A stretch of 64,000 nt of DNA from Clostridium sp. 'deep sea' (GTDB taxonomy: Bacteria > Bacillota > UBA994 > PWPR01): NCBI RefSeq assembly GCF_014931565.1, contig NZ_CP063353.1:2542001-2606000 (forward strand), written 5' to 3'. The stretch's first letter is position 1. Each line of letters starts with the position of its first letter. The notes beneath the pieces are model-generated. The model did not search any database. It was not told the origin of the DNA and worked only from the letters and a program-made list of their open reading frames with translations. This document shows positions 4,073 through 63,045 of the stretch, in pieces. The position numbers and the translations under genes were made by a program.

Positions 4073-5095
4073 CTACATTAAAATTTCTGCTTTAATAGTT
4101 CCCTTCTGCTTATTTTTTGCCCAGTATAGTAAACTATCTGCTCTTTCTAATAAATCCTCAAAAGACAAATAATCTTGATAATTTGAAGGAATTTGAATTA
4201 AACCAGCACTAAAGCTAATTGGCTTATTAAATCTTAAATAAGACAGTTGTTTAAACACATTTTGGATTCTTGTAAGTACCTTGTTGGCTGTGTAAATAGG
4301 GGTATCTGGTAAAGCAATAATAAACTCCTCTCCTCCATATCTACCTACTAAGTCACAATTTCTTAAATTATCTCTTAGAGTATCAGCGAAGGTAACTAAC
4401 ACATCGTCACCAACTGAGTGACCATAAGTATCATTAATATATTTAAAATTATCGATGTCAATTATTACCAAAGACATTATTCTACTAGAGTTAATACTAT
4501 CATGAATCATTTTTTTACAGTGATCTACTAAATAACGTCGGTTATATAAACCTGTTAGTTCATCAGTAATACCTAAAATAGTTAATTGATCTTCTATTCT
4601 TTTGCGTTTAGTTATATCCACAAAAGACATTAAAACATATTTTTTATTATTAAAAAATATAGGTTTAGCACTCGTTAAAAACCAGCGAGTCATATGCTGA
4701 TCATCAATAATAAACTGGTGGCATAAGTCAATATTATTTATTGGTTCTTCATATAATAAAATATCATTTATGCATTTTTGGGTATGACAAACAGAGCATG
4801 CTTCACATTCACCACACTCTAAATTAGTATTAGCTAAAACTTTACAAGAAAAAGCCTTACCAAATTTTTCACCAGTTACATTGTGACTTGGTATTTTTAA
4901 GTAATTAAAAAAGCTATTATTTACTTTAAATATTTGTGATTTTTCATCAATTATAACAATCCCAATTGGAGTATGTTTAAAAGCAGTAAAAAAGAGGTCT
5001 TCTTCTCTAACATTATTATGAAGGCCATTATTAACATAGTTAAAATTTGTTGGTTTACTTAATATATTTTTTAGAGAATTATGACTAAATGACAA
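4073..5095 (-). CDS. PAS-GGDEF diguanylate cyclase
   Basis: This is a 340-residue protein with no membrane helix. An N-terminal PAS domain (about residues 35-165) is followed by a GGDEF domain (about 175-335). The active-site motif is GGEEF, and the inhibitory I-site RxxD (RNCD) sits five residues before it, so an active, product-inhibited c-di-GMP synthase is expected. The PAS domain carries a cysteine cluster (CGECEACSVC), which suggests a metal or redox sensor. The start is TTG 5095, chosen because AGGAGGTG lies 5 nt upstream. It follows the half-permease pair on the same strand. Confidence 0.88.
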   Translation of the reverse strand: MSFSHNSLKNILSKPTNFNYVNNGLHNNVREEDLFFTAFKHTPIGIVIIDEKSQIFKVNNSFFNYLKIPSHNVTGEKFGKAFSCKVLANTNLECGECEACSVCHTQKCINDILLYEEPINNIDLCHQFIIDDQHMTRWFLTSAKPIFFNNKKYVLMSFVDITKRKRIEDQLTILGITDELTGLYNRRYLVDHCKKMIHDSINSSRIMSLVIIDIDNFKYINDTYGHSVGDDVLVTFADTLRDNLRNCDLVGRYGGEEFIIALPDTPIYTANKVLTRIQNVFKQLSYLRFNKPISFSAGLIQIPSNYQDYLSFEDLLERADSLLYWAKNKQKGTIKAEILM

Positions 5096-54096: not shown

Positions 54097-54120
54097 AAAG
54101 ATAGAGTTAACCCTATCTTT
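54097..54120 (-). terminator. terminator containing the stop codon of MerR-methyltransferase 1
   Basis: AAAGATAG-A-G and C-C-CTATCTTT form a hairpin with one mismatch. The gene's last codons and its TAG stop at 54113-54115 lie in the stem. The paralog at 58985 ends in the same way. Confidence 0.6.
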
Positions 54121-55330
54121 TGCCATAAAATGCATAGTTATAAATTTTTTCTCCATTTACAAAATAATCTTCGTATTTTCCGCCATTTTCTACGTAATTT
54201 GATACTCTCTCATCTATAACCTTGTACTTTAGCTCTGCAATTTCTTGTTTTACCTTATTTAAAATAAAGTTATTTCTAAATCTTTCAGCTATTAAGCTAT
54301 TGTTATTAAAATTTTTAAACAGAATATAGGAGCCAATTATGTAGGCATTTTCCTTTACATACTTATCAATTAAAGCCAACAAAAACTCATCATGTTCAAA
54401 GCTATAATTACTAGTGCCAGAGAAATCTAAAAGAATATCTATAGACTTATGCTTTATGGGCATTTCTAAAAAATCTGCACAAATAAAAACAACATTCTTT
54501 TTAATATCGGCCATTTCAAGCATGTTCTTAAGGAACTTATGCCTCGTAATATCGTGATCAACAGCTACATAAATGCAATCATTAGGAAGTTTATTATAAT
54601 TACTTCTTAAAGCAAATCCAAAACCCGAACCTAACTCTAAAAGCACTTTATTTTTTAAATCACTAAAATCTATTTTTTTATGTACCCAGTCTATGCCTTT
54701 ATAAATATTATCTAAATAATTGTAGTCCGTTACATTAATATACTCGGTAATGTAATTAAAATCAAAATTAAATTGAGATTCATTGTTACAATTATTCGCT
54801 ATTAAAATACCATTTTCTATAATATACTCTTTTCCACAACGACATTTTAATTTTCCATTTATAATTTCATTATCTTTTATTATGCCATCTTGTATAACAA
54901 ACTGTCCGTTACATTTAGGGCAGTTAAAAATATTTAACATGTTAACATTAATACCCCATGTAAACTTCTTGTCACATTCATATTGAGATAAATCTTTTAT
55001 TTTGTTTTTCAGGACACCGCCTATAGCTGTAAGATTCTCTATTCTATTTAATATTTCTTCATGTTTATTTACAAAAAGTGTTTTATAGTATTCATTTTGT
55101 TGGTAGGGAGTAAGATTGCCAAGTAGCCTAAACACAAATATTGTTTTTATTTCGTTTAAGGTGAATGCCATATTTTTTAAATTAAATATCTCATCCAATT
55201 TATTCTGACACCTGTCATCAAAAAAATATTGACCTCCCTGTTTTTCAGGGATAATTAAGCCTAAATCCATATAATACCTTATGGTATCTTTGCTAACCTT
55301 ATTTTTACTTGCAAATTCACCTATTTTCAT
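54113..55330 (-). CDS. MerR-zinc ribbon-SAM methyltransferase fusion (copy 1)
   Basis: The 405-residue protein has three parts. A MerR-type DNA-binding domain comes first (about 1-75, MKIGEFASKNKVSKDTIRYY) with a coiled coil to about 115. A zinc ribbon follows (about 137-175) with CPKC and CRCG. A class I SAM methyltransferase ends the protein (about 205-400) with motif I LLELGSGFGFALRS. The ribbon-plus-methyltransferase part resembles RlmA-type rRNA guanine methyltransferases. A MFS pump lies downstream, so a drug-responsive regulator is plausible. A paralog lies at 58985-60196. Confidence 0.82.
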   Translation of the reverse strand: MKIGEFASKNKVSKDTIRYYMDLGLIIPEKQGGQYFFDDRCQNKLDEIFNLKNMAFTLNEIKTIFVFRLLGNLTPYQQNEYYKTLFVNKHEEILNRIENLTAIGGVLKNKIKDLSQYECDKKFTWGINVNMLNIFNCPKCNGQFVIQDGIIKDNEIINGKLKCRCGKEYIIENGILIANNCNNESQFNFDFNYITEYINVTDYNYLDNIYKGIDWVHKKIDFSDLKNKVLLELGSGFGFALRSNYNKLPNDCIYVAVDHDITRHKFLKNMLEMADIKKNVVFICADFLEMPIKHKSIDILLDFSGTSNYSFEHDEFLLALIDKYVKENAYIIGSYILFKNFNNNSLIAERFRNNFILNKVKQEIAELKYKVIDERVSNYVENGGKYEDYFVNGEKIYNYAFYGKR

Positions 55331-58966: not shown

Positions 58967-58994
58967 AAAAAGATAGGGCTACCCCTATCTTTTT
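58967..58994 (-). terminator. terminator containing the stop codon of MerR-methyltransferase 2
   Basis: AAAAAGATAGGG (58967-58978) and CCCTATCTTTTT (58983-58994) form a perfect 12-bp stem. The last codons and the TAG stop are part of the stem, as in the paralog. Confidence 0.75.
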
Positions 58995-60196
58995 AGAAAA
59001 CAAATATAATTACTTATTTTGCAATTTTCATCTAACTCTAGCTCATATTCTCCAATATCAGAAATTTCCTTTGAAGTTTTTTCTTCAATAATATCATACT
59101 TAATATTTTTAAAATTGGTTTTAACATTTTCTAATATAAAATTATTAGTATCTATGCCTTGTATTAAATCATTTTTTAGAAGGTTATTGCTTATAATATA
59201 ACTTCCAAATATCACAGAATTTACTTTAGCATACTTGTCTATATATTTTAATAAAAAGCTATTGTTAGTTGCATGTCCACCAATATCTATTATAAAATCA
59301 ACGGTATCTTGTTTTAGTGGGATATCTAAAACATCAGAACATATAAGAATGACAATTTTATTAGGATCTATTGTTTTGAGCATTTCTCTTAGAGATTTTA
59401 AAACACTAATATTATGATCAACAGCAATATATATATTATTATCTAACAAGTTTTCATAAACATTTCTTAGAAAAACACCATAACCAACACCAAGCTCTAA
59501 TATTATTGTATCTTCATTAATTTCTTTGCTAAATCTTTTACTTAGCCACCGAAGATTTTTAGTAAGTATATTTATAAATCCTAAATTACTTTTTTTAGAA
59601 TAATCTAAAAAAAACTTTTCTATATCATTTCCAAAAGGATTTTCCATGTGCTCACTTTTATTTGAAACTATGATACCATCTTCTATTAAATAAGATTTAC
59701 CACATTTGCATTTGAGAATTCCTGATAAAATTTTGGTACCATTTATATCGCATTCTTTTAAAACTAAATTCCTATTACATATAGGACATCCCAAAAGACT
59801 AAGTGCATTAACATCTATTCCCATATTTTCCCTATGTGGCAATTTAGCTGCTGAAATTTCATCAATTTTATTGCTCAATCTGTTTTTAACATTTCTTAAC
59901 TCAGCTATTTGCTTTGACACTTCTTTATGCTTATTTATATAATTTTCTTTATAATAATTGTTTTTTTTATATGTAATTGGATATGCTAAGCGTTTTATGT
60001 ATAATATGTCACGTATTTCAATTAGTTTAAAGCCATATTTCTTTAGTTCTATAATATCCTTAACATCCTCACTACATTGTTCATCAAAATAATATTGACT
60101 ACCCTTTTTATCAGGAAGTAACAAATCTAACTCCATGTAGTATCTAATACTATCTATTGTTAAATTATTCTCTTCTGCAAACTTTCCAATTTTAAT
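58985..60196 (-). CDS. MerR-zinc ribbon-SAM methyltransferase fusion (copy 2), ATT start
   Basis: This is the paralog of the gene at 54113, with the same order: MerR helix-turn-helix, coiled coil, zinc ribbon (CPIC, CKCG) and SAM domain (LELGVGYGVFLRN). From ATG 60136 the recognition part of the MerR domain would be missing. The frame stays open 20 codons further, to ATT 60196, and these codons (IKIGKFAEENNLTIDSIRYY) align from the first residue with copy 1. GAGGTG lies 7 nt upstream of the ATT and no ATG, GTG or TTG is available before the upstream stop. The 403-residue product would match the 405 of copy 1. Confidence 0.75.
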   Translation of the reverse strand: MKIGKFAEENNLTIDSIRYYMELDLLLPDKKGSQYYFDEQCSEDVKDIIELKKYGFKLIEIRDILYIKRLAYPITYKKNNYYKENYINKHKEVSKQIAELRNVKNRLSNKIDEISAAKLPHRENMGIDVNALSLLGCPICNRNLVLKECDINGTKILSGILKCKCGKSYLIEDGIIVSNKSEHMENPFGNDIEKFFLDYSKKSNLGFINILTKNLRWLSKRFSKEINEDTIILELGVGYGVFLRNVYENLLDNNIYIAVDHNISVLKSLREMLKTIDPNKIVILICSDVLDIPLKQDTVDFIIDIGGHATNNSFLLKYIDKYAKVNSVIFGSYIISNNLLKNDLIQGIDTNNFILENVKTNFKNIKYDIIEEKTSKEISDIGEYELELDENCKISNYICFLKR

Positions 60197-60679: not shown

Positions 60680-61453
60680 TTAATTTTGATATAAATAATC
60701 AGTAATTACATTAATTTTATCTTTTAGATTGATGTCTTTATAATCTTGAGGACCTAATACCAACATCCTTCCTGTGTTACTCTTATCATTTATACAATTT
60801 ACTTTAGAGTATATAACATTTAGAGTTGTCATAATTCCTTGTTTAAACTTTTTATTATCTACTCCTAAACTAGTAATTTCAGGCATCAAAAATTCTTGTG
60901 ATTCCCAAACATGAGGTAGTGTTTTGCCAAGTTCAATCGCTTTTTCTTCATTTCCAGATTTTAAATATACAAAACATAGATTAGCTTTTGTTGTACTTCT
61001 AATTTTATCATAAATACAGCTATCTAAAATGCGTTCAGATATGTATATTACCTCTTCTACAATCTTTGATGATATATCGCAATCTTTGTTAAAAGTTAAA
61101 GCCAATGCTAATTCACACATGAATCCATAATCATTAGGATATAATTTTAAGGAATTACGTAGTTCATCAATTGCTTCATCAACATTGCCTTCTTCAATTA
61201 ATCTATGAATATATGTATGTATCTTGCTAATTTGCTCTTTACTTCTAAGTTCATCCATGGCTAAAAGTTCATCTACAGATACATTAAAGAAAGTGGCTAT
61301 CGAAGCAATCATATCTAGGTTTGGGTAAGTAAGATTATTCTCCCATCTGCTTATTGCCTGAGGTGAAATATCTAAAATTTCTGATAGATTTTCCTGTGTT
61401 AAGCCTCTTTTAATTCTTAATCTCTTAATCCTTTCGCCTATTTTCACTTTCAT
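60680..61453 (-). CDS. XRE-family regulator with TPR-like C-terminus
   Basis: The protein of about 257 residues has an N-terminal HTH_3 domain (about 4-60, IKRLRIKRGLTQENLSEIL, AISRWENN). A helical TPR-like region follows (about 80-200, VDEAIDELRNSLKLYPND; EEKAIELGKTLP). ATG 61453 follows AAGGAG; the longer frame to 61579 has no ribosome site. Such proteins often sense peptides or nutritional state. It lies between the duplicated fragments and the att-like repeat. Confidence 0.85.
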   Translation of the reverse strand: MKVKIGERIKRLRIKRGLTQENLSEILDISPQAISRWENNLTYPNLDMIASIATFFNVSVDELLAMDELRSKEQISKIHTYIHRLIEEGNVDEAIDELRNSLKLYPNDYGFMCELALALTFNKDCDISSKIVEEVIYISERILDSCIYDKIRSTTKANLCFVYLKSGNEEKAIELGKTLPHVWESQEFLMPEITSLGVDNKKFKQGIMTTLNVIYSKVNCINDKSNTGRMLVLGPQDYKDINLKDKINVITDYLYQN

Positions 61454-61634
61454 CTTTTCTCCTTTTACTAATTTAGATTTTACTAAATCAATAATAAACT
61501 TACCAGTTAAAACTAACCAGTACATATATGATGAGATTTTATCAACTAAAGTGAGAATATTTATATAAATAAAACACAATATTTATATTTAGTTAAAACT
61601 TATGTTATTAATATCTTATTACCAATTTATTAGC

Positions 61635-61652
61635 TACTTATGATACGGTTCA
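61635..61652. repeat. att-like copy of the rlmH 3' end
   Basis: TACTTATGATACGGTTCA matches 62564-62581 in rlmH at 17 of 18 positions. Read on the minus strand it would still encode E-P-Y-H-K-stop. It is part of an ATACGGT...ACCGTAT inverted repeat (61644-61664 region), like SCC-type attachment sites. Confidence 0.65.
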
Positions 61653-61725
61653 GCGTACCGTATTTAAGTGAGGTTAATTTTTCATCATTATTATTCTTAT
61701 AAACGTATAATCTAAACAGCATCAC

Positions 61726-62427
61726 TTATAAAATGCCATATTCACTTTTAATATAAACTTCTTCTCTTTTCTTAGGGTTCACTTTTACAGTAACTTTTTT
61801 ACCTAGTGCAATAGTATGAATTATATGCATTGGCACTAAGAAATCTTTTGTTACTTGATAAGCTTCACCTCGATAATATGGAATATCAATCGTAATCTTA
61901 TAAGACTTAACCCTATTGATTTTCGTATGGGTATCCACTATATTTGAAATGGTTCCTTCAGTTGCATCATACGTAGAAAAATCAATATTATTACGTTTGT
62001 TCAATTTCATTAATTTAACATTTATAGCTATAATTAGTGGAATACACAAGATAAGTGTCCCGCCTTGTAACATCATAGACAGCTTGGCAACTGATACACC
62101 TTCACCAATCTCCATTGTCGCATTCCCTATATCGCCACCAAGAGCACCAATAAAAAACACATGCACTTTTAACTGATAAATTATGTAGCCAACCATTATA
62201 ATTAAATAAGTAATTGGCAGTACTGTTAATTTAATAATAATATTTGAATCCACAAGCATAGAACCCATCATAAATATCATCGTAAGTACAAAAAACACCA
62301 CAACACTTTTTAACAATACTATACCAATACTACCTGAAATAAAAATTCCAACAAGTGGCACTAATGCTCCAATTATCCCAGCTATTATGCCAAATATCAT
62401 GGTCAATCTTCTTAATTTTATCTTCAT
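61726..62427 (-). CDS. DUF3592-like membrane protein
   Basis: The 233-residue protein has four to five helices in residues 10-155 and a small C-terminal beta domain (about 160-233). EGTISNIVDTHTKIN and KKVTVKVNPKKREEVYI fit the DUF3592 pattern. Function is unknown. It is the only gene between the two copies of the rlmH-end repeat, so it may be cargo of a small inserted element. Confidence 0.7.
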   Translation of the reverse strand: MKIKLRRLTMIFGIIAGIIGALVPLVGIFISGSIGIVLLKSVVVFFVLTMIFMMGSMLVDSNIIIKLTVLPITYLIIMVGYIIYQLKVHVFFIGALGGDIGNATMEIGEGVSVAKLSMMLQGGTLILCIPLIIAINVKLMKLNKRNNIDFSTYDATEGTISNIVDTHTKINRVKSYKITIDIPYYRGEAYQVTKDFLVPMHIIHTIALGKKVTVKVNPKKREEVYIKSEYGIL

Positions 62428-62562
62428 CTAACTTCTCATCTCCTAGTTACATAACGAGTATTCATTGATTTACAAAATAATTCTATAACACAATCTATTA
62501 TTTTTATCTGGCATACATTCTATTTGTCCTCTTTTCTGTGAAATCCCCAACTAAAACCTGCG

Positions 62563-63045
62563 TTACTTATGGTACGGTTCACCACTATTAATCTTCATAC
62601 ACCTATATATTTGCTCAACTAAAAATAAACGCATTAATTGATGCGGAAAAGTCATTTTCCCAAAACAGAGCCTTAAATCACTTTGTTTTTTTAGCCTTTG
62701 AGCCAGCCCATAAGAGCCCCCTATTAAAAAGCAAAACTTACTTTTACCATAAAGAGCCTGTTTTGCAAAAACATCAGCAAACTGCTCGGAGTTTTTTTGT
62801 ACTCCATCTAAATCACAAACAATTAAATAACAGTCACTTGGTATTAGTTTTTCGAGTCTTTTGGCCTCTAACTCTATAGCATTCTCAATATCTGCTTTGC
62901 TTGCAGTCTCAGGTATATGTTCGTCATTTACTTCATTTATGGTAACCTTAGCGTAGGGGCTAATTCTTTTAACATAGTCATTTATGCCCTGAGTAAGATA
63001 TTTTGTTTTTATTTTACCTACCGTATTTATATAAATTTTTATCAT
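62563..63045 (-). CDS. rlmH: 23S rRNA (pseudouridine1915-N3)-methyltransferase RlmH
   Basis: The protein of about 160 residues has the SPOUT knot features of RlmH: LIVCDLDGVQKNSEQFA, FLIGGSYGLA and the C-terminal HQLMRLFLVEQIYRCMKI region ending EPYHK. It methylates N3 of pseudouridine 1915 in 23S rRNA. ATG 63045 follows AAGGAT; the longer frame starts at a TTG. Its 3' end is the attachment site of SCC elements in staphylococci, and here the same segment is repeated about 0.93 kb downstream. Confidence 0.95.
   Translation of the reverse strand: MIKIYINTVGKIKTKYLTQGINDYVKRISPYAKVTINEVNDEHIPETASKADIENAIELEAKRLEKLIPSDCYLIVCDLDGVQKNSEQFADVFAKQALYGKSKFCFLIGGSYGLAQRLKKQSDLRLCFGKMTFPHQLMRLFLVEQIYRCMKINSGEPYHK
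62564..62581. repeat. att-like sequence at the end of rlmH
   Basis: TACTTATGGTACGGTTCA covers the codons E-P-Y-H-K and most of the stop of rlmH, the region used by SCC recombinases. The partner copy is at 61635-61652. Confidence 0.65.

Follow-up and report, generated by a model that had tools for sequence, protein, structure and literature searches.

The 64-kb stretch of DNA analysed here (the window) contains, near its end, the rRNA methyltransferase gene rlmH, followed by a short unit bounded by two copies of the last 18 bases of that gene. This unit is 929 bp long (61635 to 62563), with 911 bases between the copies, and it carries a single gene. The features of the locus are as follows:

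60680-61579, minus strand: left neighbour, an HTH (XRE) and TPR-like regulator, outside the unit, beyond the distal site towards the chromosome (Pfam HTH_3, 60.3 bits)
61635-61652, minus strand: distal site, attR-like, TGAACCGTATCATAAGTA, containing the SCC/ECC core TATCATAA at 61638-61645
61636-61669, no strand assigned: dyad at the distal site, ACTTATGATACGGT / ACCGTATTTAAGT, core arms at 61643-61649 and 61657-61663, folding z -3.7 on the plus strand
61654-61687, plus strand: distal terminal inverted repeat (CGTACCGTATTTAAGTGAGGTTAATT...), partner at 62537-62576
61726-62427, minus strand: sole cargo gene, a 233-aa membrane protein with hydrophobic stretches within residues 5-94 and 115-143 and a DUF3592-like C-terminus (182-228)
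62537-62576, minus strand: rlmH-side terminal inverted repeat (CGTACCATAAGTAACGCAGGTTTTAG...), partner at 61654-61687
62563-63045, minus strand: rlmH, 23S rRNA pseudouridine-1915 N3-methyltransferase (NCBIfam NF000985, 197.9 bits, cut-off 172; Pfam SPOUT_MTase, 172.5 bits)
62564-62581, minus strand: rlmH-proximal site, attL-like, TGAACCGTACCATAAGTA, coding for E-P-Y-H-K and the first stop bases, without a dyad

An initial annotation of this DNA had pointed to an 18-bp repeat of the rlmH end, with one mismatch, at 61635, and both copies were confirmed. The codons at 62564-62581 read G-E-P-Y-H-K-stop on the minus strand, and the distal copy at 61635-61652 differs by one base, TAT in place of TAC. 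The last 18 nucleotides of rlmH, TGAACCGTAYCATAAGTA, occur at two places in the 3.83-Mb genome, 929 bp apart (the second with one mismatch), and a search of all 3,831,732 bases returned no third place with fewer than three mismatches, which rules out a dispersed repeat. Matches with at most one mismatch are expected from base composition about 0.008 times genome-wide, or 1e-6 times per 1 kb of one strand, and with up to three mismatches 0.16 matches are expected in the 64-kb window, where only the two copies are present. As in SCC elements, the 3′ end of rlmH is the integration site, and the insertion leaves the reading frame intact.

Three features of the sites were absent from the initial annotation: a dyad confined to the distal site, an exact TATCATAA core, and imperfect terminal inverted repeats. 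SCC-type direct repeats have a central TATCATAA with an essential C; the distal copy matches this core exactly, and the rlmH copy, TACCATAA, retains the C. The plus strand at the distal site reads ACTTATGATACGGT-tcagcgt-ACCGTATTTAAGT, with the inverted half on the element side, as in the attR of SCC and ECC, and the dyad itself is ATACGGT-7-ACCGTAT at 61643-61663, with a spacer of 7 nt. This site folds far better than shuffled sequences, and the rlmH copy has neither a dyad nor a stable hairpin when folded against shuffles (z +0.5). The terminal inverted repeats are degenerate, with a local alignment score of 24 that was equalled by 14 of 1000 shuffles, and they partly use the same bases as the dyad; they are weak evidence when taken alone.

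The cargo gene, intact and preceded at 12 nt by a ribosome site (AGGAG), is the one convincing open reading frame between the sites. It had been described earlier as a DUF3592-like gene alone between the copies; the single gene stands, but the DUF3592 label (PF12158) is a weak hint below the gathering cut-off (12.9 bits against 25.3, E = 0.18). The earlier statement that no recombinase lies between the copies also holds. No homologue of the cargo protein was detected in 20 relatives, in 84,980 GTDB species by a pattern-seeded scan, or among plasmids, phages, NCBIfam, and PADLOC, so a horizontal origin of the gene is putative. Its GC content gives no contrast either, with 30.6% for the segment and 30.5% for the window. 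By analogy with the contents of other cassettes, the protein is perhaps related to defence or to the cell envelope.

Gene order around rlmH was compared with G001, the sole congeneric genome compared (a Bacillota MAG, contig JANQLZ010000035.1), and with G002, from the same family. Up to rlmH, G001 has the same order as the window, namely two MATE transporters, a pseudopilin-like repeat protein, a DUF1232 protein, and rlmH, and synteny then breaks at the rlmH stop codon, with different DNA beyond. In G002, rlmH is followed by a degenerate second RlmH-like open reading frame, then by L25 and other genes, and finally by flavodoxin and ZIP genes, which lie at 34-36 kb in the window. These differences indicate that the DNA behind rlmH is variable in the lineage, and the gene order is not common to the relatives beyond rlmH. 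Together with the restriction of the 18-mer to two places, this supports the SCC-type attachment site proposed in the initial annotation. An empty site, in which rlmH would directly abut the DNA to the left of 61635, was not found, since the one congeneric genome has other DNA at this position. The left-neighbour regulator had no DNA match in G001 or G002. In G002 (L044, 4836-5727), rlmH lacks the E-P-Y-H-K end and the degenerate RlmH-like frame behind it ends in L-P-Y-H-K, possibly a split or duplicated rlmH.

The unit had also been suggested to be the edge of a larger island extending to the left. A scan of the whole 64-kb window returned no third, degenerate site better than chance, so that the distal copy is the last recognisable boundary, and the suggestion is unsupported here, although relatives have multi-site islands at this locus.

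Large serine recombinases of the Ccr type are the enzymes expected of such sites, and a search for CcrA/B/C-like proteins had been proposed. Profile searches revealed no Ccr-like recombinase in the unit or in the genome. Because no ccr is present, the unit does not belong to SCC proper. Two proteins in this genome have a Recombinase domain, at 1.553 and 0.766 Mb (1.05 and 1.84 Mb from the unit). With the CcrB model, whose cut-off is 900 bits, they score 126 and 90, and they have matches to further families of serine recombinases; being far away and not Ccr-like, they were ruled out as the integrase. At 765.8 kb of the same genome (L047, 7791-8570), a TAG stop cuts short a large serine recombinase whose neighbours are a transposase and Rhs-like repeat proteins.

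Other genomes of the phylum have this arrangement too, with different cargo. Of 49 rlmH loci spanning 701 kb, 6 repeat the end of their own rlmH (at most three mismatches, within 20 kb downstream), tandem arrays included, and none does so in a reversed control. The junction consensus TACGGTGAACCGTAYCAYAARTR, to which the distal site and its flank in the window (TACGCTGAACCGTATCATAAGTA) match with one mismatch, was found with up to two mismatches in 34 of 399 phylum genomes compared with 1 of 399 for the reversed pattern; the figure of 34 is an upper bound, since 2 of 30 inspected loci are rlmH ends themselves and G303 contributes one extra copy. A first, broader dyad pattern (gap 0-12) matched 12 places and its control about 9, a raw count that is uninformative, and only rlmH-proximal matches and the stricter consensus were used instead. 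A site in G220, 6.4 kb from rlmH, was not counted because its central C is lost, and a copy in G035 at 17.8 kb is uncertain, as it has no dyad.

Many of the consensus-bearing genomes have small recombinase-less cassettes (0.7-7 kb), some in tandem. Those at rlmH range from single genes to operons, with open reading frames called mechanically and several cargo labels assigned by inspection only. Short examples include a 0.83-kb cassette in G047, a 0.82-kb PemK/MazF-like cassette in G124 (label by inspection), and cassettes of 1.2 kb in G102 and 1.9 kb in G143. G303 has a tandem of 0.70 kb with an antitoxin-like protein and then 1.35 kb including a Fic-like protein (both labels by inspection). 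Longer examples include one 7.3-kb cassette with Gabija (GajAB) in G005, two cassettes in G060 (6.5 and 5.3 kb), and a tandem in G056 (4.6 and 3.0 kb) whose order behind rlmH is a HamAB-like pair, a site, an amino-acid ABC transporter, and another site, the third of the locus; its junctions include AAAAACCGCC...GATACGGTGAACCGTACCATAAGTAACGGCGGTTTTT. The window unit resembles the mini-cassettes of G047, G102, G124, G143, G303, G056, G060, and G107/G069 in having the same site, a dyad or inverted flank, and a small recombinase-less body with one gene or operon. It differs from them in cargo and inner flanks, and most of them have a tighter dyad, TACGGTGAACCGTA, in place of the longer 7-nt spacer of the window. 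As a separate observation, rlmH-type junctions near a malate:quinone oxidoreductase-like gene were seen in G359 (L235), G395 (L239), and G102 (L120); G359 and G395 have no rlmH within the 20 kb examined, and this locus may be a second target.

Evidence for movement comes from two congeneric species, G107 and G069 (L231 and L232), which have a common nitroreductase-like cassette at rlmH of 997 bp with 96.4% DNA identity. This match extends to the final base of the distal site and no further; the two rlmH ends, where compared, are 81% identical, and G069 has about 3 kb of additional genes (pentapeptide-like and others) separating rlmH from the cassette. On sequence comparison, this shared cassette argues strongly for transfer and for the site as its boundary. 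Candidate enzymes are also present among the relatives. The top two CcrB-model scores in 24 genomes, 316 and 291 bits with the next at 175, belong to the rlmH-associated recombinases of G047 and G058, which lie about 13 kb behind rlmH and immediately behind it, respectively. The Ccr-like gene of G047 (L118, 4621-6288) overlaps at its 3′ end a third rlmH-type site (4726-4742) that adjoins DUF1992- and tadA-like genes and closes a 14-kb composite island starting at rlmH, and its product has staphylococcal recombinases among its best plasmid matches (33% identity). Most cassette-bearing genomes have no CcrB-model score above 200 bits, which fits action in trans or past loss of the enzyme.

In staphylococci, methicillin resistance is carried by SCC elements. 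Several Bacillota are known to have SCC, ECC, or SCC-like islands (PMC6222049; PMC10061031), and composite and pseudo-SCC forms are also known. The window unit shares with SCC the insertion at the rlmH 3′ end, the core TATCATAA, perhaps the inverted repeats at the ends (degenerate here), and the occurrence of tandem and recombinase-less units (SCCmec, pseudo-SCC, composite islands), and its repeats fit the published GANGCNTATCATAANTN (PMC3225876) with one base different, C for G. It differs in that neither the unit nor the genome has ccrA/B/C, in its size (one gene in 0.93 kb, where SCC elements span tens of kb), in its host, a distant Bacillota lineage, and in a repeat that codes for E-P-Y-H-K instead of E-A-Y-H-K. 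The att sites of ECC are direct repeats at the rlmH 3′ end with a central TATCATAA common with SCCmec, and their inverted repeats are in attR and in the circle junction (PMC6222049). The C of TATCATAA is the sole base whose change abolishes the function of SCCmec CcrAB (PMC6222049), and it is retained in both copies here. ECC thus shares with the window unit the rlmH target, the core, and a dyad in attR but not at the rlmH site, and a remnant that lacks ccr but has both sites is known; ECCs, however, are 21-78 kb with ccrAB, and their att repeats are about 50 bp compared with 18 bp here (PMC6222049). SCC-like Pol-SSB islands also lie behind rlmH in Bacillota, have sites that are copies of the last bases of rlmH, and form tandem composites, but they carry a polymerase, SSB, helicase, and site-specific recombinase, none of which is in the unit (PMC10061031).

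Of the three options offered by the initial annotation (a reduced element, a scar, or an island edge), the reduced element is the best fit. The 929-bp segment is probably a reduced SCC-like cassette that has one membrane-protein gene and no recombinase, and that a Ccr-like large serine recombinase, acting in trans and since lost, would have inserted. We infer insertion by such an enzyme from the type of site and from the relatives, and its supply in trans because it is absent from this genome. Another element would have provided the recombinase, which would join a circular cassette to rlmH, with the final ~18 bp of the gene serving as attB and the E-P-Y-H-K-stop codons retained. The rlmH site would then consist of an rlmH half and a cassette half, without a dyad, and the far-end site of the dyad-bearing cassette half and a chromosomal half. 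The unit, with its one membrane-protein gene, would be unable to move by itself, and the enzyme would later have been lost; the direction of these events and the mobility of this particular unit are likewise proposed. Several points weigh against this reading: the genomes compared gave neither an empty site nor a cargo homologue, no recombinase able to act on these sites was identified in the genome, the segment has the GC content of the window, and the terminal inverted repeats are degenerate.

The scar remains a live rival, although it ranks behind the reduced element and appears rather unlikely. It would derive from a larger SCC-like island with its own Ccr-like recombinase at rlmH, whose middle was deleted to leave both ends and one gene. 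An ECC remnant in Enterococcus faecium BM4105-RF retains both att sites (PMC6222049), the mini-unit of G047 adjoins a recombinase-bearing unit, and the ends of the window unit are degenerate. However, unrelated families repeatedly have 0.7-2 kb units in which a single gene is complete and the ends are well preserved, an outcome hardly expected from independent deletions each time, and the cargo gene here is intact with its ribosome site.

The 3′ ends of genes are common targets of tyrosine integrases, and a direct repeat alone does not reveal the enzyme, so the sites could belong to an ICE, IME, or phage that also uses the rlmH 3′ end. This is very improbable, since the distal-side dyad and the TATCATAA core are marks of the Ccr type (PMC6222049) and the relatives' recombinases at rlmH are large serine recombinases, with staphylococcal ones among the closest plasmid matches. 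Equally improbable is that the rlmH end was duplicated by chance or slippage, with no mobile element, and kept as a hairpin such as a transcription terminator behind the 233-aa gene: a stable plus-strand hairpin does lie about 55-90 nt past the cargo stop, but no T-run follows it on the gene's strand, the terminator scan does not list it, a chance match of 17 of 18 bases within 1 kb has a likelihood of ~1e-6, and other genomes have this junction behind rlmH as well.

Beyond the reduced cassette itself, a tentative extension, which we consider possible but short of probable, is that the rlmH 3′ end in Clostridium-like Bacillota (a description from relatives and gene content, not a taxonomic result) hosts an integron-like gene-cassette system. 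Arrays of small (0.7-7 kb), recombinase-less cassettes, each with one gene or operon (toxins, antitoxins, defence operons, transporters, membrane proteins) between standard dyad-bearing ends, would pass from species to species, with Ccr-like serine recombinases on other elements moving them in trans, and the window unit would be one such cassette. A literature search covering titles and the opening parts of abstracts, with subscription papers outside its scope, returned no description of small one-gene recombinase-less cassettes in these bacteria. These findings bear on where SCC cassettes originate and how ccr-less ones spread: together with its relatives, the unit suggests that use of the rlmH site, under the same site logic, reaches far past staphylococci and enterococci and falls mostly to small trans-dependent cassettes. 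If so, the origin of pseudo-SCC elements and composite islands would become testable in harmless anaerobes.

Elsewhere in the window, two paralogous MerR-methyltransferase genes lie at 54113-55330 and 58985-60136. Their upstream blocks (55280-55390/60253-60365 and 57565-57657/60416-60506) are 86-89% identical, with one 29-bp stretch at 100%, and the pair is read as a recent duplication around a sigI/rsgI-like pair.
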